The notes under the pieces: model-generated | Seen by the model: only the letters and a program-made list of their open reading frames with translations | Database searches by the model: none | What the model was told of the DNA's origin: nothing | Source of the DNA: Rhizobium tropici CIAT 899 | Lineage (GTDB): Bacteria; Pseudomonadota; Alphaproteobacteria; Rhizobiales; Rhizobiaceae | NCBI RefSeq assembly: GCF_000330885.1 | Contig: NC_020062.1 | Location: 1,682,374-1,746,373 of the forward strand | Direction: 5' to 3' | DNA length: 64,000 bases | Made by a program: the position numbers and the translations under genes | In this document: piece after piece, positions 9,719 to 27,819 of the stretch | Position numbering within the stretch: position 1 is the stretch's first letter | How the letters are laid out: each line of letters starts with the position of its first letter

Positions 9719-9898
9719 GTCATCCTCCACGATCATCCACCGTTGCAGGCAGACATAAGCAGAGATGCCTGAGTGATAAACAGCCAAATCTGCAGGGTGT
9801 TTTTCAGACATGAAAAGCAATTGGCTCGATCGGTCCGAGGGACGACACAACCAAGACGGAGTTGAAGCCAGAGAGCCCCGCGGCAGCCGTCGCATTCA

Positions 9899-10798: not shown

Positions 10799-10813
10799 CG
10801 CGTTCTCCCAATC

Positions 10814-11749: not shown

Positions 11750-11815
11750 GGCATTATCTCCTGATGAACGGTCGCAGCATGCCGGCGCCGGCATGCTGCA
11801 GATCTTCTTGGGGGA

Positions 11816-13129: not shown

Positions 13130-13282
13130 GATACTCCTCCTTTGAAAACGGGAGCAAATTCCCCCGGCGCCCACCTTCCCGTTTGGTGAACGACGACTAT
13201 CGCATTCGAACCGGCCGAATGCTTCCGCATCGATGGGTGAGCAGGAAGACTCCTCTTCTTCCGGCTCCGCACCGAAGCGGCA

Positions 13283-14350
13283 TCAAATCGTCAATCTCTG
13301 ACCGCTTTCGGCGTCGAAGAGATGGACATGCGGCACATCGATGGAAATGCGCAGCGTATCGCCGGGTTTGGCATTGATCCTCTCCCGGAAGATGCAGTTG
13401 ACATCGCTGCCGCCGAACCGGACCGTCATCTGCGTTTCATAGCCCGTCGGTTCGATCACGATGATTTCCGCGGGCAGCCCCTCGGCATCGAGCGTGATGT
13501 ATTCCGGACGCAGCCCATAGACGAGGTCGCGCGCCCTGGCGCCAGCAGGCGGATTTGCGATGGGCAGGACAGTTCCGTCCGACGCGATGAACCGGCCATC
13601 GCTCTCCGCATCGAGGCGGCCTTTGATCATGTTCATTGCCGGCGAGCCGATAAAGCCCGCGACGAAAAGATTGGCAGGCGTGTCGTAGAGATCCAGCGGC
13701 TTTCCCACCTGCTCCACGACGCCATCATGCATGACCACGATCTTGTCGGCCATCGTCATAGCCTCGATCTGATCATGTGTGACGTAGACGGTCGTGGTGC
13801 CGAGACGTTGGTGCAACTCCTTGATTTCGGCGCGCATGGCGACCCTGAGCTTGGCGTCAAGATTGGAAAGCGGTTCGTCGAAGAGGAAGACCTGGGGATC
13901 GCGCACGATCGCGCGGCCCATGGCGACACGCTGGCGCTGACCGCCGGAAAGCTGGCGGGGATAGCGGTCGAGAAGTTTGGCCAGACCCAGGATTTCAGCC
14001 GCCTTCTTGACACGCTGATCCATGTCCGCTTTCGGCGCGCGTTTGAGCATCAGCGAGAAAGCCATGTTCTGGGCCACCGACATGTGCGGATAGAGCGCAT
14101 AATTCTGAAACACCATGGCTATGTCGCGGTCGCCCGGCGCCATTCCATTGACCACGCGATTGCCGATACGGATCTCGCCGGCGGAAATATTCTCGAGCCC
14201 GGCAAGCATTCTGAGAAGCGTGGACTTTCCGCATCCGGACGGTCCGACGAGGATCACGAATTCCCCGTCCGCAATATCGATATTCACACCCTTGATAACC
14301 GGGAACGCCCCGAATGATTTCCTGACATCGACAAACTCGACACCTGCCAT
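13283..14350 (-). CDS. Sugar ABC transporter ATPase, UgpC/MalK type
   Basis: 355 residues. Walker A is GPSGCGKST, the signature is [14 protein letters not shown] and Walker B is [13 protein letters not shown]. The switch histidine lies in [15 protein letters not shown]-terminal TOBE/MalK regulatory domain occupies roughly residues 235-355 (VYGLRPEYITL). GGGAGGGG precedes the ATG. It energises the importer whose other subunits are encoded downstream and is the second gene after the GntR regulator in the operon. Confidence 0.93.
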   Translation of the reverse strand: MAGVEFVDVRKSFGAFPVIKGVNIDIADGEFVILVGPSGCGKSTLLRMLAGLENISAGEIRIGNRVVNGMAPGDRDIAMVFQNYALYPHMSVAQNMAFSLMLKRAPKADMDQRVKKAAEILGLAKLLDRYPRQLSGGQRQRVAMGRAIVRDPQVFLFDEPLSNLDAKLRVAMRAEIKELHQRLGTTTVYVTHDQIEAMTMADKIVVMHDGVVEQVGKPLDLYDTPANLFVAGFIGSPAMNMIKGRLDAESDGRFIASDGTVLPIANPPAGARARDLVYGLRPEYITLDAEGLPAEIIVIEPTGYETQMTVRFGGSDVNCIFRERINAKPGDTLRISIDVPHVHLFDAESGQRLTI

Positions 14351-14518
14351 AAAAGCCCCTCCCAGAACCTTTCACTTGCTGACTTGCGGTCAGCCCTCCT
14401 CCGAGGCACGAACCGCCAGAATGCATTAATCCGACTTCGACGTCCTATCCCCCGCCGCCGACCGGCATCTTTATCTCTCTCACGTGCATCTCAGCCATAT
14501 CTCCTCATACTGGCCAGA

Positions 14519-15262
14519 TCAGACCGGATTGCCGCTCGCCAGTTGAACCTTGGTCGTGTCGTAAATACGTGTCAGATGATGCTCGAACGCCGCAACGACG
14601 GCGTCTTGGTCGTGGCGAGCGAGCGCCTCAAAGATCGCCAGATGATCGCTGTAGCTCGCCTCGACGGCACCCGGCTTGGCCATGGCATGGCGGCGGTAAT
14701 TCATCATGTAAGTGTATAAATCGGTGACGAAGGCAGCGAGGAGCGGATTTCCGCAGGCCCGATAGATGGCCACGTGGAATTCACGGTCACAGATCAGGAA
14801 ACGCATCGCATCGTCGCCCCCGAGACGCTGGGCCTCCAGCAGGGCCTGCAGCTTTGCCAGGGTAACGTCATCGATGCGATCGGCGGCGTCGCGAACAACC
14901 TTGAGTTCGATGTGAAGACGGGCAGCGTGGACGGATTCCAGATCGTAGCCGTCGATTGCATTGGGAGAGGCGATCGTCACCGTAATATGGCTGAGATCGA
15001 CCTCGCAGACGCGGCTGCGGCTGCCATGCGAAACTTCGATGATCCCCTGAGCGGCGAGCGCCTGAATAGCGCCACGCACCGTTTCGCGGCTGACATGAAG
15101 AACGTTGGCCAATTCACGCTCTCCCGGCAGCTCGTCGCCCGGTCGCAACATGTTGGTGGCGATCAGGACCATCAGCTTCTCGGCGATGACATCACGCGCC
15201 GTTCGGCGGGCAAGACTCCGCGCGATATTCGGCACCTCGGTCAAGATCGGACTTTCGTCCAT
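14519..15262 (-). CDS. GntR/FadR-family transcriptional regulator
   Basis: 247 residues. The N-terminal winged helix (residues 20-90) contains LRPGDELPGERELANVLHVS and RETVRGAIQALAAQGI. A C-terminal all-helical FCD ligand domain (residues 100-235) has the metal-binding histidines and Asp typical of FadR subgroup members (DREFHVAIYRACGNPLL and HLAIFEALARHD). It heads the sugar importer operon and probably represses it until the sugar or a derivative binds. A repeat-rich element lies just upstream of its start. Confidence 0.92.
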   Translation of the reverse strand: MDESPILTEVPNIARSLARRTARDVIAEKLMVLIATNMLRPGDELPGERELANVLHVSRETVRGAIQALAAQGIIEVSHGSRSRVCEVDLSHITVTIASPNAIDGYDLESVHAARLHIELKVVRDAADRIDDVTLAKLQALLEAQRLGGDDAMRFLICDREFHVAIYRACGNPLLAAFVTDLYTYMMNYRRHAMAKPGAVEASYSDHLAIFEALARHDQDAVVAAFEHHLTRIYDTTKVQLASGNPV

Positions 15263-15423: not shown

Positions 15424-16587
15424 TTAAGCCAATCGTAGACGGCTTTGCGGAACTGCGTCGAGGTCAGCGTCGCATATGCGATTTCGTCCCGCAGCTTTTG
15501 CCAGATACAGTGCTCGGTCAGCCTCCCGACAAAGGCTCGCAAGTTCAGTCCCGTGGAAAGCTCTTGCAACCCCGCCACTTATCGTCACCGTAATCTCGGG
15601 ACCAAGTGTAGGAAAGCGGAGTTCGGCCACGGTCTTGCGGATCCGCTCCGCATAAAATAGCGCGTCCCCCGCCTTTGCCGGAAGGAAGACGATAAACTCT
15701 TCACCCCCTTGGCGCGCTAGCAACGCCCCTTTCGGTAAGGTTGACTGCACCGCCTGCGCCATCGTTGAAAGAACCTCGTCGCCCGCTGCATGCCCCCAGC
15801 GATCGTTCAATTGCTTAAAATGATCTATGTCCAGAAAAAGAACCGCGTCTCCGGGATGTGGCTGGCTAGGCGCGTTTGCGTTAAAAAAGCGACGATTGTA
15901 GAGACCTGTGAGATGATCGCGGTCAGCAAGGTTTTTAATCTTGGCATGTTGACGCTCGCTGATGAAGATCACGATTGCAATCGCAAGCACGAACTTGGAA
16001 ATGATCATCAGGAGGAAGCCGTTAGCCACATCGAGCACAGGAAAGGACCTGGTGGAGAATTCCAGCGCCATAACTAAAGAAAGCAGACTGGCGGCGGCAA
16101 GCAGTCCTACAATCAACCTGCGGATCGGCAGCGGCTCACGAAATGCATCCCGAAACACGACAACAGCAGTGGCAGCCATCGTCAAACAACCGAGAACCGT
16201 GAAAGTTGTCGCCCGGTAGGTGTTAGTCAGATGGAATGCTGTAATCAATCCAGCAGCCAAAGTTCCGATTGCCGGCAGGAATACAAGCCATGGGTTGATT
16301 TTACGATCGGGATCGCTGATCAGGACAAAGGCTGAGGCAAGAAGGCAATACCCCAGAACCGCAAGCACGATATTGACGAGACTTAGAAGGCCGTAAAGTG
16401 CTGGATAAAGCTCTGCATACCCCGCCAGTGTCGATCCCGCTGCAAGGACTATAAAGCTCGCTGCGAGAAGCCCAACCCCACGGCTTTCCGCCGAGGTGAG
16501 CCGCAAATAGCCCAAAGTCAAAGCGCCAGCAATATAGGACGTTTTCTGCAAGAAGAGGACAGTCGGAAGATCAAGTTCGTTGGTCAT
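15424..16587 (-). CDS. Membrane diguanylate cyclase (GGDEF)
   Basis: 387 residues. Residues 1-215 hold about six or seven hydrophobic spans with no recognised sensor signature. Residues 225-380 form a GGDEF domain: DHLTGLYNRRFF, FLDIDHFKQLNDRWGHAAGDEVL and the active-site RQGGEEFIVFL, in which GGEEF is an active variant. No allosteric RxxD was seen immediately upstream. It should make cyclic di-GMP at the inner membrane in response to an unknown signal. It is monocistronic, with a weak ribosome binding site. Confidence 0.93.
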   Translation of the reverse strand: MTNELDLPTVLFLQKTSYIAGALTLGYLRLTSAESRGVGLLAASFIVLAAGSTLAGYAELYPALYGLLSLVNIVLAVLGYCLLASAFVLISDPDRKINPWLVFLPAIGTLAAGLITAFHLTNTYRATTFTVLGCLTMAATAVVVFRDAFREPLPIRRLIVGLLAAASLLSLVMALEFSTRSFPVLDVANGFLLMIISKFVLAIAIVIFISERQHAKIKNLADRDHLTGLYNRRFFNANAPSQPHPGDAVLFLDIDHFKQLNDRWGHAAGDEVLSTMAQAVQSTLPKGALLARQGGEEFIVFLPAKAGDALFYAERIRKTVAELRFPTLGPEITVTISGGVARAFHGTELASLCREADRALYLAKAAGRNRICDADLDAVPQSRLRLA

Positions 16588-16974: not shown

Positions 16975-18009
16975 CTAGAGGACGATGCGTCCTCCCATAG
17001 CGGCCGAGCGCTTGACGGCCTCAATGACTTTCAATGTCTCCAAGCCTTCCCGGCCGCTGACAAAAGGAGCTTCCTCGCCCCGGATGACGCTGCAGAACTG
17101 ACGGATCTGCATGACAAGCGGGTCCTCGTTTTCGAATGCGGCCCTGTCTTGCTCAAATGCCTCGGTCCAGCTTCGCTTCTCGGCATTGCTCCATATTTCC
17201 AGCGACGGCACGGCCAGCGATCCGTGTGTTCCGCCGATCATGTAGCAAATCTCCTGAGTTTTCGGATAAGCGGGATTTTCTCCCGTCGTCATCTCCCAAC
17301 TCCATGGCGCGACAACGGAATCGGACACGGAAGCAGTACCGAGAACACCGCTTTTGAACTCGATGAGGATAACAGCGGTTTCCTCGACGGCATTGCCTCG
17401 CACAGCGTTGGATTCACGGGCCTGCACGGCGTTTATATCGCCGCAAAGGAAGCGGAGGTTGTCGATGTCGTGAATTAGGTTGAGGAAGACCGGCCCCGCT
17501 CCACGCTCTCGCCGCCAGGGGATGTCAAAGTATTCGTCCGGCTTGAACAGCCAGAACATCGCATTCACGATCAGGATCCGACCGAGCGTCCCGCTGTCGA
17601 TAATCTCCTTCGCTTTCTGCATCATCGGATTATGCCGGCGGTGATGTCCCGTCAGCAGCGCCACGCCTTTGGCCTCGGCCATTTGCACAAGCTTCTCTCC
17701 GGCAGCGATATCGTCCGCGATCGGCTTTTCGATCAGCGCCGGGACGCCCGCCTCCACGGCTTCCAACCCATTTTGAACATGCACCTGGTTCGGCGTCGCG
17801 ATGATGACTCCGTCGGGGCGCCCGGAAATCATCATGTCGGCAAAACTGGGGAACCATCTGACACCAGCCTCACTCGCGATCGCCTGGCCGACTGGCGTGG
17901 GATCCACAACTGCCACCAGCTCTGCGGCGGGCTCTTCCATCACGTGCTTGATGTGACGCTTGCCGATCAGCCCCGCCCCAAGGACTGCCAGCTTGACCCG
18001 GGTCGCCAT
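16975..18009 (-). CDS. Gfo/Idh/MocA-family NAD(P)-dependent oxidoreductase
   Basis: 344 residues. The Rossmann motif is LAVLGAGLIGKRH at the N-terminus, and the conserved EKPIADD loop near residue 93 contacts the nicotinamide. The catalytic region is HNPMM with FLNLIHDIDNLRFL (His/Asp). Enzymes of this family oxidise or reduce cyclitols, sugars and other polyhydroxy compounds. It is the last gene of the minus-strand hydroaromatic operon, 5 bp after aroQ. A role as a dehydrogenase for quinate or a related cyclitol-like acid is an inference from that setting. Confidence 0.9.
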   Translation of the reverse strand: MATRVKLAVLGAGLIGKRHIKHVMEEPAAELVAVVDPTPVGQAIASEAGVRWFPSFADMMISGRPDGVIIATPNQVHVQNGLEAVEAGVPALIEKPIADDIAAGEKLVQMAEAKGVALLTGHHRRHNPMMQKAKEIIDSGTLGRILIVNAMFWLFKPDEYFDIPWRRERGAGPVFLNLIHDIDNLRFLCGDINAVQARESNAVRGNAVEETAVILIEFKSGVLGTASVSDSVVAPWSWEMTTGENPAYPKTQEICYMIGGTHGSLAVPSLEIWSNAEKRSWTEAFEQDRAAFENEDPLVMQIRQFCSVIRGEEAPFVSGREGLETLKVIEAVKRSAAMGGRIVL

Positions 18010-18014
18010 CGCTA

Positions 18015-18464
18015 TCAGTCCTTCTTCTCGGTCTTGAGCATGGTCGCAACTCTGCGGATGCCGAGTTGATAGCCTTCGGTACCGAGACCAGCGATGACGC
18101 CGTCGGCCCGGTGGGATACGAAGGAATGGTGGCGAAAACTCTCGCGCTTGTGGACGTTGGAGATGTGGATCTCGATGACGGGGCCTTCAAAAGTGTTCAG
18201 TGCGTCAAGGATAGCGAGCGAAGTGTGCGTGAACGCGGCCGGGTTGATGACAATGCCGGCGCCGTCCTCGCGTGCCTGGTGGATCCAGTCGATAATCTCG
18301 TATTCGCGGTTGCTTTGATGGAAACGGATCTCGTGCCCCAGCTCTGATGCCAACTTTCGGCAGTCCGCCTCGACGTCAGCCAATGTCTCGTGCCCGTAGA
18401 TATGTGGTTGGCGCTTGCCGAGGAGGTTTAGGTTTGGTCCGTTGAGAACGTAGATGATGCTCAT
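18015..18464 (-). CDS. aroQ: 3-dehydroquinate dehydratase, type II
   Basis: 149 residues, the usual length for the dodecameric type II enzyme. It starts with [20 protein letters not shown], carrying the catalytic Arg and Tyr. It continues with NPAAFTHTS (Asn and the general-acid His) and [17 protein letters not shown] (substrate contacts). It interconverts 3-dehydroquinate and 3-dehydroshikimate. Its place in an importer operon with a shikimate dehydrogenase homologue and a TIM-barrel enzyme points to catabolic use (quinate to 3-dehydroshikimate) rather than biosynthesis. AAGGA precedes the ATG. Confidence 0.94.
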
Positions 18465-18494
18465 TGCATTTATCCTTGTTGGGCGTTGCCGGAA

Positions 18495-18863
18495 TCAGGT
18501 GAAGGCTATGTCCTGAAACGCGAAGTTTGGGTCGGATTCGTAGAGATCTGCGCGAAGCCCGAGCCGGCCGGTTTCCAGTGCAGAAGCCGCGACGTCACGC
18601 GCGGCTTCGAGCACCGATTTCAGCAGCTCTCGTTTGACCTCTGCGGGGCGGCCTGGGGCCATGCGTACAATTATCTGCACGAAATGGTTGTCGGGATGCT
18701 CGTCCCCGACGCAGGAGACGGTGGCTTCTCTTGCAAACGTGCGCACCACGGTTGGCTTGACCAGCCCTCCGTCGCGGACCCGGCGATGAACAGCGCGGGT
18801 CAGCTCTTCGATGGCGACGCGTTCCGCTGCACCGCGGCTGTAGTCGATGATAATATGCGGCAT
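18495..18863 (-). CDS. 5-carboxymethyl-2-hydroxymuconate isomerase-like tautomerase
   Basis: 122 residues starting MPHIIIDYSRG, so a catalytic N-terminal proline is exposed after removal of methionine, as in the tautomerase superfamily. The length and the pattern DNHFVQIIVRMAPGR with KRELLKSVLEAARD match CHMI (HpaF-type) proteins. CHMI isomerises the oxidised product of extradiol homoprotocatechuate cleavage. No extradiol dioxygenase is present, but HpaH- and HpaI-like genes lie on the opposite strand of this cluster, so it probably tautomerises a related unsaturated diacid. Its gene sits between aroE-like and aroQ. Confidence 0.83.
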   Translation of the reverse strand: MPHIIIDYSRGAAERVAIEELTRAVHRRVRDGGLVKPTVVRTFAREATVSCVGDEHPDNHFVQIIVRMAPGRPAEVKRELLKSVLEAARDVAASALETGRLGLRADLYESDPNFAFQDIAFT

Positions 18864-18878
18864 GGAGTAGTCCCCCGA

Positions 18879-19739
18879 TCAGGCTGTCACTCGGCACAGC
18901 TCGTCGAAATGGCGCGACATTCGTTCCGTGTCGGGCGACAGGCCTGTGAACAGCTCGAAGGCTGCGGCCGCCTGAAACACGGTCATTCCTCCGCCTGGGA
19001 GTGTTCGGCACCCCTGCTGCTTTGCCAACGCAAGGAGCTCGGTCACCAACGGCATATAGACAATATCCGCCACCCAGTGACGGTGCTGTATCCAATCGGG
19101 ATCTATCGGAAGCCCCGGATGGCTCGGCATACCGGTCGGCGTGGCGTGGATCAGGCCATCTGCGCTGGCGAGCGCAGCACCGACGTCCCGCACCGACCTT
19201 GCAACCTCTCCTGAAAATCTCTCGTTGAGCTGGTCGGCGAGCGTGGAGGCGCGGCGCTCGTCCTGATCAAAGATCGAGAGCTTTTCTATGCCGAGTTTCA
19301 CGGCAGCGTGCGCGACGGCCACCCCAGCGCCGCCAGCGCCAAGCAGAACAGCATGAGCCTTCGCGACGTCGGGCAAGCCGCGCTCGAAATTCCTGTAGAA
19401 GCCATACCAGTCGGTGTTGTGTCCGATCCGCTCGCCGTTGCGAAGCACGACCGTGTTTACGGCCCCAAGCATCTTAGCGTCCTCGGACAGGCGGGTCAGG
19501 TGAGGCAGCACGGTCTGTTTGCATGGATGGGTGATGTTGGTTCCGGCAAAGCCGCGACTTTCCAGTTCGCTCAAGAGATCTGGCAGCGCGGAAGCGGGCA
19601 ATCCGCGCTCCGCCAGGTCCACGAGCTCGTACTCGTAATCAAGTCCCAGGTGGCGCCCTTCCGTTTCATGGAGCGCCGGCGACTTTGACATCTGGATGTC
19701 GGCGCCGATGAGGCCGACCAGAAATTTGTTGTTGTCCAT
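18879..19739 (-). CDS. Shikimate/quinate dehydrogenase-like protein
   Basis: 286 residues. The substrate site is QMSKSPALHETEGR, then GTNITHPCKQ with the catalytic Lys near residue 74, and GAVNTVV with GHNTDWYGF (Asn and Asp). The NAD(P) motif is LLGAGGAGVAVAHA. The NITHP form and the SPALHE-EG start resemble the catabolic quinate/shikimate dehydrogenases of actinobacteria (QsuD-like) more than housekeeping AroE, whose motif is usually NVTIPYK. It would oxidise quinate or shikimate to the dehydro acid. It lies in the same operon as the importer and aroQ. Confidence 0.87.
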   Translation of the reverse strand: MDNNKFLVGLIGADIQMSKSPALHETEGRHLGLDYEYELVDLAERGLPASALPDLLSELESRGFAGTNITHPCKQTVLPHLTRLSEDAKMLGAVNTVVLRNGERIGHNTDWYGFYRNFERGLPDVAKAHAVLLGAGGAGVAVAHAAVKLGIEKLSIFDQDERRASTLADQLNERFSGEVARSVRDVGAALASADGLIHATPTGMPSHPGLPIDPDWIQHRHWVADIVYMPLVTELLALAKQQGCRTLPGGGMTVFQAAAAFELFTGLSPDTERMSRHFDELCRVTA

Positions 19740-19751
19740 GTCTCTGCCCGA

Positions 19752-20525
19752 TCAGTGATGCGCAAGGATTTCGCCGAGAAATGCCTTCGTCCGTTCATGC
19801 GTGGGATTCTTGAAGAAGGTTTCTGGCTCCGCCTCCTCGATGATCTCTCCGGAAGCCATGAAGATGACCCTGTCAGCGACTTGCCGGGCGAAGCCCATTT
19901 CATGGGTCACGCAGATCATGGTCATGCCGTCTCTTGCGAGGCCGATCATGGTGTCGAGAACCTCTTTGACCATTTCAGGATCCAAGGCGGATGTGGGCTC
20001 GTCGAAAAGCATCGCTTTCGGCTCCATGCACAGGGCACGCGCGATGGCGACGCGCTGCTGCTGTCCGCCGCTGAGCTGTGCCGGATACTTTTCCGCCTGA
20101 TCGAGGATACGGACGCGTTCGAGATATTTTCGCGCCAACTTCTCCGCGTCGGCACGGCTTGCCCCCCGCACTCTCATGGGTGCAAGCGCGCAGTTTTGCA
20201 GAACGGTCATGTGCGGGAACAGATTGAAGTTCTGGAAAACCATTCCGACTTCACGTCGAATGGCGTCGACCGCCTTGGCGGAGCCATCAAGCAGTTGACC
20301 TTCCACCACGATCTTGCCGCCCTGAATCAGTTCAAGAGCGTTGATACAGCGGATCAGGGTGGACTTGCCGGAACCGGACGGTCCACAAAGGACGATCTTC
20401 TCTCCCTTGCGAACCGACAGATTGATGTTCTTCAGGGCATGGAAGGCGCCGTACCATTTCTCCACTTTATCAAGGGATATCAAGGTCGACTGATCGTTGG
20501 GGGAATTGAGCACGGCGCCCTCCAT
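19752..20525 (-). CDS. Polar-amino-acid-type ABC transporter ATPase
   Basis: 257 residues. Walker A is GPSGSGKST, the signature [14 protein letters not shown] and Walker [17 protein letters not shown], followed by the [15 protein letters not shown] switch region. This is the GlnQ/HisP class without a C-terminal regulatory domain. The ATG at 20525 is right after the stop of the binding-protein gene; a GTG at 20513 has GGAGG in front and may be the true start. It powers the importer of the hydroaromatic operon. Confidence 0.92.
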
Positions 20526-20532
20526 TTATGCT

Positions 20533-21357
20533 TTACTTGACCGTAAACGGGATGTTGGGGATGGATTCAGGGAACTTGGGAAGATCGATTGCCATCCACT
20601 TCTTGGTGATGGCTGCGAGTTCACCATTGCCCTTGATCTTGTCGAGGAAGGCGTTGACGGTCTCGTTCCAGTCCTTCTCGCCAAGTCGCGTTCCCACGCC
20701 GTTGTAAGTCGTCAGGAAGTCGATCTTTCGTTCATATGTGCCCGCACTGGCTGCATCGAGCCTCTGCCCGTAGAACTGATTGCCGCCCACTGCCTTTACC
20801 TGTCCGGAGATCAGGGCCTGGATAGTGGCCGCGTCATCGTCGAAGCGGCGGACGGTGGCCTTCGATCCGACCGCGTCGGTTACGGCCTTGTCCTGCGAGC
20901 TGGACTTCGGCACGCCTATTTCCCAACCAGCCAAATCGGCCGGCGATTTCACGGCGTCGGCTTTGGCGGCATAAAGCGAAATCGTGTTGGCCGCATAAGG
21001 TTTGCTGTACTGGATCGCCTTGGCGCGCTCTTCCGTCATCGCCATCGTGGCGAAGAGAATATCGACCTTACCGGTCGTCAATGCGGGAATACGGTTCGCT
21101 ACCGCGAGCGGTTGGAACTGAACTTTCACGCCGAGCTCCTTGGCGAACAGCGTCGCCACATCGGCATCGAAGCCGTCCTGTTTGCCGCTCGAGTTCACAA
21201 AGCCCCAAGGCGCGTTGTCGCCCTGAATGCCCACGACGAGCGTTCCCTTCGACTTGATCTCCTCAACAGATGCCGCAGTGGCTGCCGCAGCGCCAACGGC
21301 GGCGAAGGTAGCGGTCGCCAGCGCTAGACCGAGAAATTTCCGACGATTGGTATTCAT
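20533..21357 (-). CDS. Family 3 substrate-binding protein of the hydroaromatic operon
   Basis: 274 residues with a signal peptide (RRKFLGLALATATFAAVGAA, Tat-like RRKFLG) ending near residue 27. The mature protein carries GTLVVGIQGDNAPWGF, KQDGFDADVATLFAKEL and the family strand MAMTEERAKAIQYSKPY. GAGGAGG precedes the ATG. Family 3 proteins usually bind amino acids or opines. Here the operon content suggests a carboxylated ring such as quinate, shikimate or an aromatic acid, which would be an unusual ligand; this is inference only. Confidence 0.92.
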   Translation of the reverse strand: MNTNRRKFLGLALATATFAAVGAAAATAASVEEIKSKGTLVVGIQGDNAPWGFVNSSGKQDGFDADVATLFAKELGVKVQFQPLAVANRIPALTTGKVDILFATMAMTEERAKAIQYSKPYAANTISLYAAKADAVKSPADLAGWEIGVPKSSSQDKAVTDAVGSKATVRRFDDDAATIQALISGQVKAVGGNQFYGQRLDAASAGTYERKIDFLTTYNGVGTRLGEKDWNETVNAFLDKIKGNGELAAITKKWMAIDLPKFPESIPNIPFTVK

Positions 21358-21401
21358 TGCACTTTCCTCCTCTTGTGCTGTTTACTTCTCCCGAAGCAGG
21401 T

Positions 21402-22052
21402 TTAGCGGGCGGCTTTTGCCATCCGTTTCTCAAGGCCGCTTCCGACGTGGGAAAGAGGCCAGCAAATCATGAAGTAGATTATTCCGACGATCCCGAAGAC
21501 GAGCAGCGGGCGGTAGGTCTGGTTCGATATGATCTGGCCAGCCCGGGTCAGCTCGATGAAGCCCACGATCGCAGCAAGCGACGTCCCCTTGATGAGCTGC
21601 ACGAGAAAGCCGATGGTCGCAGGCATCGAAATCTTCAAAGCCTGTGGCAAAACCACGTCCTTCATTCGGGAGACGTAATGCAGGCCGAGAGCGTTCGCGG
21701 CTTCGGTCTGCCCTTTGGGAACGGCTTCAATCGAACCGCGCCATATCTCGCCGAGGAAGGCGCTTGCGTGGAGAGTGAACGCGATCGCGACAGCGACCCA
21801 GGCGTTGACGTCGATGCCAAGCAAGGCAACGCCGTAGTAGACGACAAAGAGCTGCATCAGGAGCGGCGTGCCCTGGAAGAGCGCGATATAGCCGGATGAT
21901 GCAAGCCGGGCGAACTGATGCTTGGACGTGCGCGCAAGCGCGATCAAAATGCCGAACACGCCTCCGCCGATGAAACCGATAACCGCCAGCAATACGGTCC
22001 ATTTTAGACCTTGCAGGATGAAGAACAGCTCATTTTCGCCGATGGGACCCAT
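21402..22052 (-). CDS. Polar-amino-acid-type ABC permease
   Basis: 216 residues with about five spans. The HisMQ-type core is ARLASSGYIALFQGTPLLMQLF and the ATPase contact loop is SIEAVPKGQTEAANALGL. TAGGAGG lies upstream. It is the second permease subunit, 9 bp after its partner gene. Confidence 0.92.
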   Translation of the reverse strand: MGPIGENELFFILQGLKWTVLLAVIGFIGGGVFGILIALARTSKHQFARLASSGYIALFQGTPLLMQLFVVYYGVALLGIDVNAWVAVAIAFTLHASAFLGEIWRGSIEAVPKGQTEAANALGLHYVSRMKDVVLPQALKISMPATIGFLVQLIKGTSLAAIVGFIELTRAGQIISNQTYRPLLVFGIVGIIYFMICWPLSHVGSGLEKRMAKAAR

Positions 22053-22061
22053 GAGCGCCTC

Positions 22062-22730
22062 CTATCGAGTCGGATAGTTGAAGTAAGAACGGGAGATCAG
22101 GGCGAAGATTCCCATCATCAGGCTTGAGATGACCAGGTAGATTGCGGTCACGGTGAAGTAGACTTCGAAGCTTCGGAACGTATCCGACTCGATGCGCTGT
22201 GCCGCGGAAGTCAGCTCATATGCGGCGATCGAGGTGCACACTGACGTGGTCAAGGTCAGCATCACGAACTGGCTCGTCAAAGAGGGGTAGATCGCTCGCA
22301 GTGCCGGCTTCAGAACGACGAGCCGGAAGACGTCGGCCTTGTGCAGCCCGAGCGCAAAACCGGCTTCGATCTGCCCCTTGCTGATGCTCTCAACGCCGCC
22401 GCGGATGATCTCGATAGCGTAGGCGCCTCCGTTGATCCCCAGCGCGATGATTGCGGTGACCGTCGGGTTCAGGCGGATGCCCATAAGCGGGAGGGCGAAG
22501 TAGATGAAGAAGATCTGCACCAGGAACGGCGTGTTGCGGACGACTTCGACGAACGCGATCACCGGAGCGCGAACCCACCTGGTCTTCGACGTTCTTGCTG
22601 CAACGCCCAGGATTCCGATCACGAGAGCGAGCAGCATCCCGGCGAAGGCGAGACCCAACGTTCCGAGCGAACCCCAAAACAATTCCGGGGCGCGGTCGAA
22701 GACCGCGCCGAAATCAAACCTGTAACCCAT
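22062..22730 (-). CDS. Polar-amino-acid-type ABC permease
   Basis: 222 residues. The core VIAFVEVVRNTPFLVQIFF and the loop GVESISKGQIEAGFALGL are diagnostic of the HisMQ family. AAGGGAGGA lies upstream. It pairs with the neighbouring permease to form the heterodimeric channel. It follows the TIM-barrel gene by 49 bp in the same operon. Confidence 0.92.
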   Translation of the reverse strand: MGYRFDFGAVFDRAPELFWGSLGTLGLAFAGMLLALVIGILGVAARTSKTRWVRAPVIAFVEVVRNTPFLVQIFFIYFALPLMGIRLNPTVTAIIALGINGGAYAIEIIRGGVESISKGQIEAGFALGLHKADVFRLVVLKPALRAIYPSLTSQFVMLTLTTSVCTSIAAYELTSAAQRIESDTFRSFEVYFTVTAIYLVISSLMMGIFALISRSYFNYPTR

Positions 22731-22779
22731 CTGCTGGCTTCCTCCCTTCGGCGCGGCTCTCGCCTCGCCGCCGCCGCGA

Positions 22780-23604
22780 TCACTGACCCGGCTTAAATAT
22801 TCGTAAGGCCCCTTCGAACAGGCGTTTCAAATGCTCCTCCGCGTCTGCCGAGCCTGAAAGAGGTACTTCGACCGAGACCGATGCTGCCCCGTTGACCATT
22901 GCGACCAGTTCGCCCAAGGGCAATTCGCCCTCGCCAGGGGCAAGACGCTTGCCTCGGGCCTCAGCGATCATGGCCTCCGCCGTGCTCGGAGCGGGTCCGA
23001 TGACGTCGCACAACTGGACATGCTTGACCCTGTCGATCTCGTCGCGCAGCGACGTCAACGTTCCGCCGTTCCTGAAGAAATGAACTCCGTCAACGAGTGC
23101 GCCGGCATTGGACGCGCCACTCGATTTCAGGAGATCGACGCTGTCAGCGAAGGTTCTGACCGTCCGCCAACCCATGTTCTCGATATCGACTGCCAATCCG
23201 TAGCCGCTTGCAAGATCGCAGAATTCGGTGAAGTTCGACTGCAGCCTGTTCTGTTCCGGATCGTCGCCGCACACGCTTAGACGCTGGGCCCCGATATTGG
23301 CAGCCGCGGCCACTACGGGCTCCAGAGACGAGGCGTTGAAGGATGGGTCGATGACAAAGAACTCGATATCGAAAACCTCGAGCGCTTCGCCGCGCAATAC
23401 GGCTTTCAGTTCTTCCGCTGCGCGGCGGCCTACCGGCAGTTCGTAGTACGGCGCTCCAGGAAATGCCGGATTCAGCCTCAGCCCAATTCTGGAAAAGCCC
23501 GCCCCCGCTGCAGCCTTCGCAAAATCGCTCGGCGTCAGGGTGATGGCAGAAAAGTGCGCTACGCCAATCTGTTGCTCTGATTTCGATCCAGGCGTCACCA
23601 TCAC
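22780..23604 (-). CDS. Sugar-phosphate isomerase/epimerase-like TIM-barrel protein, possible 3-dehydroshikimate dehydratase
   Basis: 274 residues, the AP-endonuclease-2/xylose-isomerase-like barrel. Metal-site strands are visible as AVDIENMGWRTVRTF (Glu), NAGALVDGVHFF (Asp and His), HVQLCDVIGP (His and Asp) and a late Glu in APGEGELPLGELV. The same fold includes inosose dehydratase, hydroxypyruvate isomerase and the AsbF/QuiC-type 3-dehydroshikimate dehydratases. The operon also encodes AroQ and a quinate/shikimate dehydrogenase homologue, both making 3-dehydroshikimate. Its dehydration to protocatechuate is therefore the most attractive role, but it is inferred from context. Its start overlaps the GntR stop by 4 bases. 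Confidence 0.8.
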   Translation of the reverse strand: MMVTPGSKSEQQIGVAHFSAITLTPSDFAKAAAGAGFSRIGLRLNPAFPGAPYYELPVGRRAAEELKAVLRGEALEVFDIEFFVIDPSFNASSLEPVVAAAANIGAQRLSVCGDDPEQNRLQSNFTEFCDLASGYGLAVDIENMGWRTVRTFADSVDLLKSSGASNAGALVDGVHFFRNGGTLTSLRDEIDRVKHVQLCDVIGPAPSTAEAMIAEARGKRLAPGEGELPLGELVAMVNGAASVSVEVPLSGSADAEEHLKRLFEGALRIFKPGQ

Positions 23605-24338
23605 ACGATCCCTTTCGTCGCGAGATGATTTCGAAGGTTCGTCCCGGTGCGGTGGATGTGCTGTCGCAGTTTCTCGGTAGCGTATTCGATATCCCGCGCG
23701 ACCGCTCCTTGCGCAATCTCGCTGTGCTCCTGCCCGACGTTCCGGTCGCCGGAAGTCCTGATGAGGAAGACCCTGCGGTATCGGTCATTCAAGTTCAGCA
23801 AGAGGCCGCAGAAATGCAGCAGAAGCGGTTTGCCGCAACCGGAAATGAGCGTGAGATGGAATTCCCGGTGAAGAGTCTCCCATTGCTCGAGCGTCTCGGG
23901 CCGCGAGGCATCTCGATCCGTGCGGTTCAGGCGATGGAGCGAGCGCATTATATTGCTCTCCCACTCGACATCGCCGATGCGCATGGATTCCCGCAGCGCG
24001 AAGACTTCGAGCTCTTCGCGGAGCGTCGTGATTTCTTCCAGATTCGCCAGCGAGATCGGAGCTACGCGATAGCCGCGATTGTCCTGAAATTCCACCAGGC
24101 CGTCGGAGATCAAACGGGCAAGCCCCTCCCTCAGAGGGCTTAAGCTGACGTTGAACGTGCGGCGCGCCTTGTCGAGATTGATCTTGCTGCCGGCCTCCAG
24201 CTCACCGGAAATGATCGCCTCGCGCAGACGCGACGCCAACTGGCTTCCGATGGTGTTCTTGCCATCATCGGAAAAACCCGCGGACGCCGTCTCCTCGTCT
24301 GTCATTGGCGCAGAGGCGCTGTCGTCGGCCGAGCTCAT
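23601..24338 (-). CDS. GntR/FadR-family regulator of the hydroaromatic operon
   Basis: 245 residues from the ATG at 24338 (GGGAG upstream); the frame continues to 24437 without a good start. After about 25 polar residues comes a winged helix (SQLASRLREAIISGELEAGS, RRTFNVSLSPLREGLARL). An FCD domain follows with metal-ligand histidines (LHREFHLTLISGCGKPLL). It is the first gene of the minus operon and is translationally coupled to the TIM-barrel gene. It probably represses both this operon and the divergent dioxygenase operon through the shared AT-rich element (24382-24397 and 24544-24559). Confidence 0.9.
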   Translation of the reverse strand: MSSADDSASAPMTDEETASAGFSDDGKNTIGSQLASRLREAIISGELEAGSKINLDKARRTFNVSLSPLREGLARLISDGLVEFQDNRGYRVAPISLANLEEITTLREELEVFALRESMRIGDVEWESNIMRSLHRLNRTDRDASRPETLEQWETLHREFHLTLISGCGKPLLLHFCGLLLNLNDRYRRVFLIRTSGDRNVGQEHSEIAQGAVARDIEYATEKLRQHIHRTGTNLRNHLATKGIV

Positions 24339-24381: not shown

Positions 24382-24403
24382 GATAAACGATTATTTATGT
24401 CAA
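24382..24403 (-). promoter_or_regulatory. Promoter of the GntR-led operon with internal operator half-match
   Basis: On the minus strand TTGACA (complement of 24398-24403) is followed by TAAATAATCGTTTATC. A TATCGAT-like -10 lies about 17 bases on, near 24377. The spacer holds a degenerate copy of the AATAATCGATTATT palindrome seen in the divergent promoter, so one repressor could cover both. Confidence 0.5.
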
Positions 24404-24538: not shown

Positions 24539-24566
24539 TTGACAAATAATCGATTATTTTTAATAG
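24539..24566 (+). promoter_or_regulatory. Dioxygenase promoter containing a 16 bp palindrome
   Basis: TTGACA (24539-24544) and TAATAG (24561-24566) form a sigma-70 promoter with a 16 bp spacer. The spacer is almost entirely the perfect palindrome AAATAATCGATTATTT (24544-24559). An operator in the spacer is a classical repressor position. The start codon follows 25 bp after the -10. Confidence 0.6.
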
Positions 24567-24590
24567 TCGGCGCCAGTGGGAGGTACCCTT

Positions 24591-25484
24591 ATGGCCATAA
24601 AGACCGAAAGCGAGTTGACGCCTGCCGTTCTCGCGGTGATGAACAAAACCGAGGATCCACGTCTGCGAGAAATCCTCGTGGCGATGGTGAAGCATCTTCA
24701 TGCATTCGTGCGGGAGGTGAGATTGTCCGAAGTCGAGTTCCGCGAGGCTACGGCGATACTCAACGAGATCGGACAACTGCAGACGGACAGCCACAACGAG
24801 TTTGTTCTCATGGCCGGATCTCTCGGCGTGTCCGCGCTGGTTTGCCTTTTGAACAACGGCGACGGTGGCCAGACGGAGACGTCGCAGTCTCTTCTCGGCC
24901 CGTTCTGGCGCCTGAACTCTCCCCGTGTCGAAAACGGCGGTACGATCATCCGCTCCGACACGCCAGGCACGCCGCTCTATGTCCGCGCCAGGGTGGTAGA
25001 CCGGGACGGCAGGCCGATCGCGGGTGCCGAGGTCGATGTTTGGCATGCTTCTCCTGTTGGGCTCTATGAAAATCAGGACCCCGATCAGGCTGAGATGAAC
25101 CTTCGGGGCAAGTTCACCACGGACGCCGACGGCCGCTTCTGGTTCAGTACCGTGAAGATGGTCGGATACCCGATCCCGGTCGATGGCGTCGCCGGCCGAC
25201 TGCTAAAAGCGCAGGGACGTCACCCGTACCGACCAGCGCATCTTCACGCCCTGATCTTCAAGCAGGGATACAAGACGCTGATTTCCCAGGTCTTCGATCC
25301 AAGCGATCCCAATATCGATTCCGACGTTCAGTTTGGAGTGACGGCAGCCCTGACCGGCGACTTCGTCCGCCATGACGAACCGCATCCGTCCGAACCCGGC
25401 ATTGAGAGGCCCTGGTTCTCGCTCGACTACACCTACGTCATGGAGCCCGGCGAGGCCGTGCTGCCGCGCCCGCCAATCAAATAA
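24591..25484 (+). CDS. Intradiol ring-cleavage dioxygenase, hydroxyquinol/catechol type
   Basis: 297 residues from the ATG at 24591 with GGGAGG upstream. The N-terminal helical dimerisation domain (residues 1-100) is followed by ETSQSLLGPFWR and a beta-sandwich catalytic domain. The expected ferric-iron ligands are Tyr159 (GLYE), Tyr193 (VGYPIP), His217 and His219 (YRPAHLHALI). It cleaves between two adjacent ring hydroxyls. The N-terminal domain places it with catechol and hydroxyquinol 1,2-dioxygenases rather than protocatechuate 3,4-dioxygenase. No maleylacetate reductase or muconate cycloisomerase is nearby. It is first in a three- or four-gene operon with hpaH- and hpaI-like genes. Confidence 0.9.
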   Translation: MAIKTESELTPAVLAVMNKTEDPRLREILVAMVKHLHAFVREVRLSEVEFREATAILNEIGQLQTDSHNEFVLMAGSLGVSALVCLLNNGDGGQTETSQSLLGPFWRLNSPRVENGGTIIRSDTPGTPLYVRARVVDRDGRPIAGAEVDVWHASPVGLYENQDPDQAEMNLRGKFTTDADGRFWFSTVKMVGYPIPVDGVAGRLLKAQGRHPYRPAHLHALIFKQGYKTLISQVFDPSDPNIDSDVQFGVTAALTGDFVRHDEPHPSEPGIERPWFSLDYTYVMEPGEAVLPRPPIK

Positions 25485-25504
25485 CCAACGACAGAGCCGA
25501 ACCG

Positions 25505-26287
25505 ATGATCACAGAACAGGAACGCCGAGAGGCGGCCAACGCCCTTCTGAAGGCAGAAACCGACCGCAAGCCAATCGTTCAACCGAGCAGGACCTATCCC
25601 GGTCTGGAGCTTGAAGACGCCTACAAAATTCAAGCGCTCTGGGCGGAGGCTCGGACTGCTAGGGGTGCTCGGGTCGTAGGTCACAAGATCGGCCTTACGT
25701 CGCGCGCGATGCAGATGGCATCCAAGATGACCGAGCCCGACTATGGTGTCATCCTCGACGACGCCCTCTACAATGACGGAGCGCAGATCAAGGCCGACCT
25801 CTTTATCAAGCCCCGCCTCGAAGTCGAGCTCGCCTTCGTGATGGGCGAGGATCTCGAGGGGCCTGGTACCCGGATCTACGACGTGATGAGGGCGACTGAA
25901 TTCGTAGTCCCGGCTCTCGAGATCATCGACTATCGCACCGAGGTTCCAAGAGCGATCACCGACACGATCGCCGACAATGCCGCTTTCGGGGCGATCGTTG
26001 TTGGCGGGCGCATCATTCGCCCAATGGACATCGACATCCGCTGGGTGGGCGCCACTCTCTCGAAGAACGGCATTATCGAGGAATCCGGTGTTTCTGCAGC
26101 GATCATGGGCCATCCGGCAGCCGGGATCGCCTGGTTGGTAAACAAGCTCCATGCGGTGGGCGGCGGTTTGAAAAAGGGGCAGATCGTGCTGGCCGGCTCT
26201 TTCACCCGCCCTGTGGACATAGCCCAGGGCGACGTGATCCAGGCAGACTACGGCCCCGTCGGCTCAATCGGCGTCTCATTCGCGTGA
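25505..26287 (+). CDS. 2-oxo-hept-3-ene-1,7-dioate hydratase-like protein (HpaH family)
   Basis: 260 residues matching the MhpD/HpaH hydratase family. Characteristic segments are [34 protein letters not shown] (metal-ligand glutamates) and [15 protein letters not shown] near the C-terminus. The family adds water to 2-hydroxy-dienoates or 2-oxo-enedioates after meta (extradiol) cleavage. Here it follows an intradiol dioxygenase by 20 bp, which is unexpected. Its substrate may be a tautomer made by the CHMI-like protein of the facing operon. The precise diacid is unknown. Confidence 0.88.
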
Positions 26288-26294
26288 GGATCTA

Positions 26295-27059
26295 ATGGAA
26301 CTCCCCGTCAACAGCTTCAAGCGAAAACTCCAGGCCGGTCAAAGTCAGATCGGATTGTGGTGCGGCCTTCCGGGCAGCTATACAGCGGAAATCGTCGCAC
26401 CGTCCGGTTTCGACTGGCTGCTTTTCGATACCGAACATTCTCCCAGCGACGTTCTTACTGTGCTTCCACAGTTGCAGGCGGTCGCGCCGTACGACGTCGC
26501 CGCCGTGGTTCGCCCGGCCTTTAACGACCCCGTATTGATCAAGCGTTTTCTGGATATCGGCGTCCAGACGCTTCTCATTCCATATGTGCAGAATGAACAG
26601 GAGGCGAAGGCGGCCGTGGCGGCGGCGCGTTACGCACCGCGAGGTATCCGCGGCGTATCCGCCCTCACCCGCGCCACCCGCTTCGGGCGCGTGCCGAACT
26701 ACGCGCAGACCGCCGAACAGGAAATCTGCCTCTTGCTGCAGATCGAGACACGAGAGGCGCTCGATCGGCTTGAAGCCATTGCAGGGGTCGATGGAGTCGA
26801 CGGGATCTTCATCGGTCCGGCAGACCTTGCAGCCAGCCTCGGTTATCCCGGCCAACCGGGACATCCCGAGGTAGTATCGGCAATCGAGAATGCGATCGAA
26901 CGCTTGAAAGCCGTGGGTAAGCCTTCGGGCATCTTGACGCCTGACGAGAAGTTTGCGGCGCGCTGCATTGGGCAGGGAACGCTGTTTACCGCAGTTGGTG
27001 TCGATGTTGCTCTCCTTGCCAGAGGATCGGAAGCACTTGCGTCCATGTTTTCGCACTAG
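26295..27059 (+). CDS. 4-hydroxy-2-oxoheptanedioate aldolase-like protein (HpaI family)
   Basis: 254 residues, a class II metal-dependent aldolase of the HpcH/HpaI family. Visible active-site elements are FDTEHSPSD (Asp and His), VVRPAFND (Arg that orients the carboxylate), [10 protein letters not shown] (metal Glu) and [14 protein letters not shown] (metal Asp). It would split a 4-hydroxy-2-oxo diacid to pyruvate plus a semialdehyde. GAGG precedes the ATG by 5 bases, and the gene follows the hydratase by 7 bp. Confidence 0.9.
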
Positions 27060-27120
27060 GGCCGGATGTCGTTCGAAAACCGCCTGCACTTTTCGGCATC
27101 ACGCTCTAGGGAGACGTAGT

Positions 27121-27819
27121 ATGTTCACTTTGGAGCAGGTCCGGTCGGAAATAGCGTCGGCTGGAACCATCAGGGCCGCCGTCAATATGTCGAACGCAGC
27201 ATTGATCCGCTGGGACGAAACCGCAGGCGCCTTAGTGGGACTGAGCGCGGAAATTGCGGATAGGATCGCCCGCGAACTTGATCGGGGGCTTTCCCTCATA
27301 CGATACGGATCCGCGGCGGATATTCTTTCCGCTGCGGACGGCGGCGAGTGGGACATCGCCTTCATCGCGTCAGACCCATCAAGAACCGATCGCTTCAGCT
27401 TCTCGCCCCCCTATATCTCAGTCGAAGCCACCTACCTGGTTCCGGTAACTTCACCCTACCGGACGGCGGACGAGCTGGATACCAATGGAATTCGCATCGC
27501 TTCCGCGCGTAGCGCCGCCTATACAAAACAGCTTGAGCGAACACTCAAGCGAGCGACGGTGCTGCATGTCGACAACCCGGCGGCGGCCGTCGGCTTTCTC
27601 GTCGACCAAGAATGCGACGCGGCGGCTGGACTGACCGAATTCCTCTTCAACGCCTCGGAGCGGATGGAAGGCTTCCGGGTGGTAGATGGAGTGTTTTCGC
27701 GAATTCCTCAGACGATCGCGGTGCACAAACGGGCCACCAATGCCTCGCTCTTCTTCGCGGACTTCGTGCGGCGGCTCGGTGGCGCGGATGCTGGGGAAGA
27801 AAAAAACGGAGTTCCGTGA
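27121..27819 (+). CDS. Leaderless family 3 solute-binding-like protein
   Basis: 232 residues from the ATG at 27121 (AGGGAG upstream). It resembles the periplasmic amino-acid-binding fold: GTIRAAVNMSNAAL, GALVGLSAEIADRIAREL, GEWDIAFIASDPSRTDRFSFSPPYI and AAGLTEFLF. There is no signal peptide; the fold starts almost at the first residue. The longer upstream frame overlaps the aldolase gene and adds no signal either. It may be a cytoplasmic ligand sensor or chaperone for the pathway, or a binding protein exported by another route. It is 61 bp after the aldolase gene and probably cotranscribed. Confidence 0.8.
   Translation: MFTLEQVRSEIASAGTIRAAVNMSNAALIRWDETAGALVGLSAEIADRIARELDRGLSLIRYGSAADILSAADGGEWDIAFIASDPSRTDRFSFSPPYISVEATYLVPVTSPYRTADELDTNGIRIASARSAAYTKQLERTLKRATVLHVDNPAAAVGFLVDQECDAAAGLTEFLFNASERMEGFRVVDGVFSRIPQTIAVHKRATNASLFFADFVRRLGGADAGEEKNGVP

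Follow-up and report, generated by a model that had tools for sequence, protein, structure and literature searches.

Quinate and shikimate are common plant acids, and gallate is a unit of hydrolysable tannins. The closest described systems for compounds of this kind are QsuABCD of Corynebacterium glutamicum, in which QsuA is a major facilitator superfamily (MFS) carrier, and other QuiC-type pathways; the gallate pathway through 4-oxalomesaconate, known as GalA-GalD-GalB-GalC or DesB-LigU-LigJ-LigK; and the homoprotocatechuate meta pathway, which follows the scheme HpaDEFGHI. Here we analyse a window of 64,000 nucleotides from Rhizobium tropici CIAT 899 (contig NC_020062.1, positions 1,682,374 to 1,746,373), where a divergent unit of 14 genes under the proposed control of a GntR-type regulator may combine the import and processing of a hydroaromatic acid with a ring-cleavage operon for gallate, a reading to which we give an even chance. 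It builds on gene content, conservation, a shared palindrome, the clade of the dioxygenase and the oxalomesaconate genes of one related locus (L172), all of which are observed; every substrate named below, and the feeding of the ring-cleavage branch by the hydroaromatic branch, we infer from sequence.

The unit resembles the QsuABCD and QuiC-type pathways in its type II dehydroquinase, its QsuD-like dehydrogenase and a TIM barrel with QuiC-type active-site positions, but it has an ATP-binding cassette (ABC) importer, an extra Gfo/Idh enzyme, a single-domain TIM barrel and a ring-cleavage module that replaces the pca genes. With the Gal/Des-Lig pathway it would share intermediates and end products, and the same dioxygenase clade stands beside an oxalomesaconate tautomerase and LigK in L172; however, the unit has an intradiol and not an extradiol dioxygenase, and an HpaH-type hydratase and an HpaI-type aldolase where the known route has LigJ/GalB and LigK/GalC. 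HpaH and HpaI, both over their cut-offs, and a tautomerase of the CHMI family are features of the homoprotocatechuate pathway, from which the 14 genes differ in the absence of an HpaD-type extradiol enzyme, HpaE and HpaG and in the presence of an intradiol dioxygenase.

Gene families were assigned by Pfam and NCBIfam scores relative to the cut-off of each model. An open reading frame (ORF) check places ten genes on the minus strand, separated by short gaps or by none, and the initial annotation, which had described them as an operon, holds in content and placement for all ten by ORF list, Pfam and NCBIfam. The operon is real but forms only half of the divergent unit, the ring-cleavage half at 24576-27819 on the plus strand having been missed. 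A scan of named genomes seeded with the TIM barrel returned 38 loci, from Rhizobium, Ensifer/Sinorhizobium, Mesorhizobium, Shinella and a record identified no further than Rhizobiales; a gene was counted as present when one tblastn match covered 60% of the query, broken genes thus counting as missing. All fourteen genes are found in 29 of the 38 loci. The dioxygenase, HpaH, HpaI, the binding-protein-like gene, GntR and the TIM barrel each occur in all 38, the dehydroquinase and the CHMI-like gene in 37, the binding protein, the ATPase and the shikimate dehydrogenase in 36, and the four importer genes together also in 36; Gfo/Idh is the least constant (30/38). Gene order is constant across the listed TIM-seeded loci. 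The recurrence of gene content and order at 38 loci in other rhizobial genomes puts the association beyond chance, although seeding with the TIM barrel overstates its pairing with the other genes. Among whole genomes, the dioxygenase (E up to 1e-110) is found in 25 of 397 from the order and 5 of 385 from the class, and the TIM barrel (E up to 1e-20) in 26 of 297. Three loci hold reduced units in which the ring-cleavage genes remain: L060 lacks the importer and most of the dehydrogenase, Gfo/Idh is short in L061, and L089 retains fragments of importer genes and matches neither the dehydroquinase nor the CHMI-like gene.

The two halves appear to be linked by a palindrome. An exact ATAATCGATTAT lies between gntR and the dioxygenase in 41 of 44 aligned loci, and in the window it occupies the spacer of a promoter-like TTGACA (24539) and AATAGT (to 24567); taken by itself, the promoter scan does no better than chance (4 found, 4.2 expected). 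A second site, ATAAACGATTAT, is found on the gntR side with one mismatch. Exact copies are present in 37 of the 38 TIM-seeded loci, and all 38 have at least two sites when up to 2 mismatches are allowed over the whole stretch. Within the window such matches number 3 against 1.34 expected, not clearly above chance, and the evidence for the palindrome is therefore its conservation. Five further one-mismatch places occur in the host genome, two of the three viewed lying inside reading frames. The palindrome mostly follows the ring-cleavage module: it is exact at the module in L095, L096, L098, L099, L109, L111 and L181, among which L099 and L111 are ring-cleavage clusters that lack importer and TIM barrel and yet have it, and sites with one mismatch occur in L094, L121 and L170, as well as at the module of L100, which also has an exact copy beside a second gntR gene. 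In most ring-cleavage loci having HpaH, gntR adjoins the palindrome. No site was detected with up to 2 mismatches in the pRL11 and pS11L clusters described below, which are without the module, nor with up to 1 mismatch in dioxygenase loci without HpaH or in the stretches taken from L171-L180 and L182-L186; L115 and L116 have their sole sites, with one and two mismatches, inside the HpaH gene. This distribution indicates that regulator, operator and ring-cleavage genes form a set that mostly stays together, and we propose that the GntR protein controls both operons.

For the dioxygenase, comparison with relatives makes ATG at 24591 a likelier start than 24576. Its closest solved relatives are the hydroxyquinol 1,2-dioxygenases 1tmx (191 bits) and 3n9t (187 bits), members of the same family with which the RPAHLH region is conserved. 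The Asp of the LLSDxLG motif, which has a role in hydroxyquinol 1,2-dioxygenase, is by contrast replaced by Gly in 66 of 71 dioxygenase rows, and these 66, including the window protein, form one clade with support 100/97 in the 71-row tree; the remaining five rows have Asp, as do 1tmx and 3n9t, and fall outside the clade. The maleylacetate reductase of the hydroxyquinol route is also missing from the 14 genes. The tree, drawn from a midpoint root, has long branches; the position of the long rows L101-L103, L107, L115, L174, L179, L183 and L186 is unsure, and rows L169, L170, L173, L176, L180, L181, L185 and L186 are the tblastn-matched stretch and not the whole gene. In L172, from the same order, a clade member 75% identical to the window protein comes directly after a pcaF gene. 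Behind it, in the same orientation, lie genes for a TctC receptor, a LysR protein, two Amidohydro_2 proteins, a 4-oxalomesaconate tautomerase (531.8 bits, cut-off 440) and a LigK aldolase (412 bits, cut-off 304.5); HpaH and HpaI have no match there, and none of the genes tested encodes an extradiol enzyme. Of 18 dioxygenase-seeded stretches, five have HpaH (L169, L170, L181, L184, L185), one, L172, has the oxalomesaconate set, and in six tblastn shows pcaHG-type neighbours (L171, L173, L175, L176, L178, L180), confirmed by a family model in L178 only; in these six, pcaF and pcaHG-type genes adjoin and HpaH/HpaI matches are absent. The Asp-type dioxygenase of L186 is accompanied by a short-chain dehydrogenase/reductase (SDR) and a 3-keto-5-aminohexanoate cleavage (BKACE) protein, and the fetched stretches of L174, L177, L179, L182 and L183 contain no HpaH, pcaHG-type, oxalomesaconate or SDR/BKACE set. 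The combination of Asp-keeping dioxygenase, SDR and BKACE protein, seen in L101 (11013-17929), L102 (11010-14622) and L186 (around 9048-10744), would represent another ring-cleavage set.

We know of no bacterial intradiol-type gallate dioxygenase. A description of a rhizobial one was not found in the part of the literature that was accessible, subscription papers being mostly outside its scope. Two strains offer a further hint from gene neighbourhood. On pAt2 of A. fabrum Kin001 the module is flanked by LigM (822 bits, cut-off 580), then metF, and on the other side, beyond a five-gene importer, by a DesA-like O-demethylase (548 bits, under its cut-off of 800), which is what conversion of syringate to gallate would call for; in A. 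tumefaciens 186 the module is followed by LigM (854 bits), metF and purU. DesA and LigM take syringate to gallate in SYK-6 (PMC6888825).

The remaining genes of the module can be placed on a complete route from gallate. Intradiol opening of gallate yields the same acid as the extradiol route, 4-oxalomesaconate. A vicinal trihydroxybenzoate, most likely gallate, would be opened by the intradiol enzyme to 4-oxalomesaconate, which the CHMI-like and binding-protein-like proteins would isomerise; the HpaH-type enzyme (358 bits, NCBIfam cut-off 351.5) would hydrate the isomer to 4-carboxy-4-hydroxy-2-oxoadipate, and the HpaI-type aldolase (392 bits, cut-off 368.8) would release pyruvate and oxaloacetate. 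The overall equation, gallate + O2 + H2O = pyruvate + oxaloacetate, requires precisely a dioxygenase, an isomerase, a hydratase and an aldolase, and as hydration and aldol cleavage give these two products, no decarboxylase is needed, in keeping with the absence of one among the 14 genes. The isomerase step is shared by two candidates. The CHMI-like protein scores 69.4 bits against Pfam CHMI (cut-off 26.5) and has an invariant Pro after the initial Met, but its 22.5 bits against the equivalog NF011605 (cut-off 215) set it apart from true CHMI. Its family was recognised in the initial annotation, which counted it among the hydroaromatic enzymes; because it stands with the ring-cleavage module alone in A. 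tumefaciens 186, it may instead serve that side, possibly as isomerase of the ring-cleavage product. The 27121-27819 protein has a binding-protein fold, starts with ATG at 27121 and shows no signal peptide by inspection. In profile comparison, where many amino acid binding proteins also match, it is closest to AncCDT-1 and further cyclohexadienyl dehydratases with their ancestors; L095, L098 and L170 gave no match to it. Some relatives lie beside aconitase or tricarballylate genes and others lack such neighbours. Oxalomesaconate being an aconitate-like tricarboxylate, these neighbours make an isomerase role a fair guess. Relatives of this kind were seen near aconitase in Pantoea (L112, 7998-8708) and near tricarballylate genes in Paracoccus (L113, 8001-8720), and the family is perhaps one of tricarboxylate isomerases.

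On the other strand, the importer belongs by family to the polar amino acid class, with 120.2 bits to SBP_bac_3 for the binding protein (cut-off 26.4) and 96.9 and 101.7 bits to HEQRo_perm_3TM for the permeases (cut-off 42.2). In canonical family 3 binding proteins, an Arg binds the carboxylate of the ligand and an Asp its alpha-amino group. Aligned with the ancestral AncQR, the window protein keeps the carboxylate Arg111, but the alpha-amino Asp is Asn193, and both residues are found in 43 of 43 rows, pRL11, pS11L and L170 included (these rows, like the 40 dehydrogenase rows below, count two genomes twice, L036=L067 and L037=L066). The importer core recurs in other arrangements. On pRL11 of R. 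johnstonii 3841 the binding protein is 57% identical, the permeases 73 and 68% and the ATPase 77%, and the core is accompanied by aroQ (52%), Gfo/Idh (57%) and a shikimate dehydrogenase of only 32% identity. This cluster differs from the unit in that a two-domain QuiC-like protein and pca genes replace the TIM barrel and the ring-cleavage module: divergent from the core is a protein annotated as sugar phosphate isomerase with a 4-hydroxyphenylpyruvate domain, which is the QuiC layout, and the pca genes, also found in PMC4495286, come after it. On pS11L of B. japonicum the core occurs with two shikimate dehydrogenases, aroQ and Gfo/Idh. The replacement of Asp by Asn in all rows and the gene context on pRL11 and pS11L suggest that the importer probably carries a hydroaromatic acid, and for the same residue change an amino acid or opine was rejected as its ligand. 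An MFS carrier has been named as the route of shikimate uptake in R. leguminosarum (PMC3333776). The window's binding protein starts with MNTNRRKFLG, which resembles a twin-arginine export signal.

Once imported, a quinate- or shikimate-type acid would be processed by the shikimate/quinate dehydrogenase, the Gfo/Idh dehydrogenase, the type II dehydroquinase and the TIM barrel. The dehydroquinase (NF003806, 225 bits, cut-off 171; TIGR01088, 188 bits, cut-off 169.85) is a second copy in the genome, with a 47% paralogue at C1:1481238, and is 92-99% identical in the loci holding it. The dehydrogenase, which has the NITHP-K motif noted in the initial annotation, falls in the PRK12549 subfamily (439 bits, cut-off 235), with 258 bits to the NAD+ quinate/shikimate dehydrogenase equivalog PRK14027, under the cut-off of 515, and 240 bits to the C. 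glutamicum enzyme 3jyo; its S-K-S, Thr, Lys and Asp are invariant in 40 of 40 rows. The TIM barrel has a single domain and scores 19.9 bits against the QuiC model (cut-off 1200). QuiC-type metal and acid/base positions, for which the comparison drew on PMC7442255, are kept where mappable. By profile its nearest relatives are Lmo2234 and QuiC1, and by fold both tie with IolI, which makes it compatible with the 3-dehydroshikimate dehydratase that the initial annotation had suggested. Its Arg147 was rejected as a marker of the gallate clade, being kept in HpaH-linked TIM barrels but also in L038, L039, L043, L097 and L104, whose gene neighbours are uninformative. The Gfo/Idh protein is probably a dehydrogenase of the hydroaromatic acid; a role as a LigC-type semialdehyde dehydrogenase was rejected, PmdC being distant (53.1 bits, E 2.2e-13) and the gene having no match in the ring-cleavage clusters L098, L099, L109 and L111. 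Distant TIM-barrel relatives accompany an intradiol dioxygenase and a maleylacetate reductase in S. meliloti Rm41 pRM41A (L107, 2995-10645) and Caballeronia sp. NK8 (L103, 6008-8807), with aroQ and an FAD enzyme matching 4-oxocyclohexanecarboxylate-type dehydrogenase models below cut-off in Rm41; these sets perhaps form a hydroaromatic-to-hydroxyquinol route.

That such acids end as protocatechuate, as the initial annotation had it, is where its scheme becomes doubtful, its proposal of hydroaromatic catabolism through a family 3 ABC importer being otherwise consistent with Asn193 and the pRL11 context. The divergent module fits gallate better, and the host genome has, apart from the unit, a QuiC-like cassette as well as pcaH. 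The cassette, near C4:1127600-1132700, comprises an MFS carrier (304.5 bits to the shikimate transporter model, cut-off 538), a two-domain QuiC-like gene (682 bits, cut-off 1200), a TetR gene and a shikimate dehydrogenase 54% identical to the window enzyme; pcaH is at C4:1586459 (363 bits, over 296.4). Among the 14 genes, Pfam and NCBIfam detect no protocatechuate ring-cleavage genes. A second textbook route to protocatechuate would be redundant, which favours another product for the unit without proving it. The host has no LigM over cut-off and no LigK either (best score 63.5 bits, under 304.5). An oxalomesaconate tautomerase-like gene is found at C4:284030 (509 bits, over 440), about 1.4 Mb from the unit, and the 15 kb around it contain no match to the L172 amidohydrolases or to the unit's ring-cleavage genes.

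Several observations weigh against the combined hydroaromatic and gallate reading. HpaH and HpaI pass cut-offs of models for the homoprotocatechuate pathway. The oxalomesaconate set beside this dioxygenase comes from a single locus, L172; nine loci of genus g38 with the dioxygenase were fetched (L171-L173, L175-L178, L180, L183), of which six carry pcaHG-type genes next to it and eight contain, in the stretch retrieved, nothing that matches the L172 tautomerase. The tautomerase model itself is not strict, since one of the two control genomes matching it (E. coli, B. subtilis) passes the cut-off. L184 and L185 have the module and no palindrome with up to 1 mismatch. Gallate from quinate takes two oxidations and one dehydration, and the clusters of Sagittula (L096) and Microvirga (L095) have one dehydrogenase, aroQ and the TIM barrel, that is, two dehydratase-like enzymes, a count that fits protocatechuate rather than gallate. 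In plants, certain shikimate dehydrogenases contribute to the formation of gallate (PMC4892741, PMC7752791), and by analogy one dehydrogenase could serve twice. This enzyme count is among the reasons to consider two parallel branches under one regulator, the hydroaromatic acid going to protocatechuate and on to pca genes elsewhere, and the divergent operon degrading gallate that arrives with it, for instance from galloylquinate-type esters. The QuiC-type positions and profile neighbours of the TIM barrel, the QuiC-like protein and pca genes beside the pRL11 core, and the host pcaH all agree with such a division. We nevertheless consider it unlikely, if a serious contender: the host QuiC-like gene is already served by its own carrier, regulator and dehydrogenase, no esterase is found by family among the 14 genes, and the TIM barrel accompanies ring-cleavage genes in L098 and L109, with no aroQ, dehydrogenase or importer match near, and lies collinear with such genes in L096, L184 and L185.

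The module might also act on protocatechuate or hydroxyquinol instead of gallate, a proposal that draws on the hydroxyquinol 1,2-dioxygenases as closest solved relatives, on the pcaF and pcaHG-type neighbours in genus g38 and on LigM, which makes protocatechuate from vanillate in A. fabrum C58 (PMC7797058), so that LigM beside the module is no proof of gallate. Against it stand the Gly found in every member of the clade, the absence of maleylacetate reductase from the (incomplete) annotation tables of ten HpaH loci, and established chemistry, by which intradiol cleavage of either compound does not yield the 2-oxo acids needed by HpaH and HpaI. As its product does not reach the 2-oxo acid for HpaI, protocatechuate was rejected as substrate and is kept as a low rival because of the pcaHG-type neighbours; we regard this alternative as improbable. 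Least probable by far is an ordinary amino acid or opine importer lying by chance beside unrelated catabolic genes: binding protein, permeases and ATPase do belong to the polar amino acid class, but the Asn is universal in the aligned rows, the core keeps company with aroQ and shikimate dehydrogenase on pRL11 and pS11L, and the four importer genes remain together in nearly all TIM-seeded loci.

Features of the divergent unit in the window (coordinates of the 64,000-nucleotide stretch).
Feature	Position	Strand	Evidence
Gfo/Idh/MocA oxidoreductase	16975..18009	-	Pfam, NCBIfam, PDB matches
Type II 3-dehydroquinate dehydratase	18015..18464	-	over NCBIfam cut-offs
CHMI-like tautomerase	18495..18863	-	Pfam CHMI, conserved columns
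Catabolic-type shikimate/quinate dehydrogenase	18879..19739	-	NCBIfam, 3jyo match, residues
ABC importer ATPase, polar amino acid class	19752..20525	-	Pfam, NCBIfam
Family 3 solute-binding protein, SBP_bac_3	20533..21357	-	Pfam, residue alignment
ABC importer permease, BPD_transp_1	21402..22052	-	Pfam, NCBIfam
ABC importer permease, BPD_transp_1	22062..22730	-	Pfam, NCBIfam
Xylose-isomerase-like TIM barrel (AP_endonuc_2), 3-dehydroshikimate-dehydratase-like	22780..23604	-	Pfam, profile, fold
GntR/FCD regulator, proposed for both operons	23601..24338	-	Pfam, conserved context
Operator-like palindrome ATAAACGATTAT, one mismatch, gntR side	24383..24394	.	conservation
Operator-like palindrome ATAATCGATTAT	24546..24557	.	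conservation, promoter-like spacer
Intradiol ring-cleavage dioxygenase, proposed gallate dioxygenase	24576..25484	+	Dioxygenase_N, Dioxygenase_C, clade
HpaH-type hydratase, proposed 4-oxalomesaconate hydratase	25505..26287	+	NCBIfam HpaH
HpaI-type aldolase, proposed 4-carboxy-4-hydroxy-2-oxoadipate aldolase	26295..27059	+	NCBIfam HpaI
Cytosolic family 3 binding-protein-fold protein, proposed ring-cleavage-product isomerase	27121..27819	+	profile, context

Downstream of the minus-strand operon, positions 8723-15262 hold a separate sugar-type ABC importer, an aldo/keto reductase and their own GntR regulator, and a GGDEF-like gene (15424-16587, by sequence only) lies between this set and the operon.

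A wider claim can be drawn from the unit, namely that rhizobia aromatise quinate- or shikimate-type acids to gallate within one regulon, with every enzyme family after gallate (intradiol dioxygenase, isomerase of the binding-protein fold, HpaH-type hydratase, HpaI-type aldolase) differing from the known route and with an ABC importer specific for hydroaromatic acids; we put it forward tentatively and hold it to be less likely than not. If true, the dioxygenase would add a bacterial gallate dioxygenase of the intradiol type, at the head of a lower gallate pathway that draws on different enzyme families, a class of hydroaromatic ABC importers would be recognisable by Asn193, and a family of cytosolic proteins with the binding-protein fold would gain a likely enzymatic role. 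The unit would then also represent a nutritional link between legumes and their symbionts.

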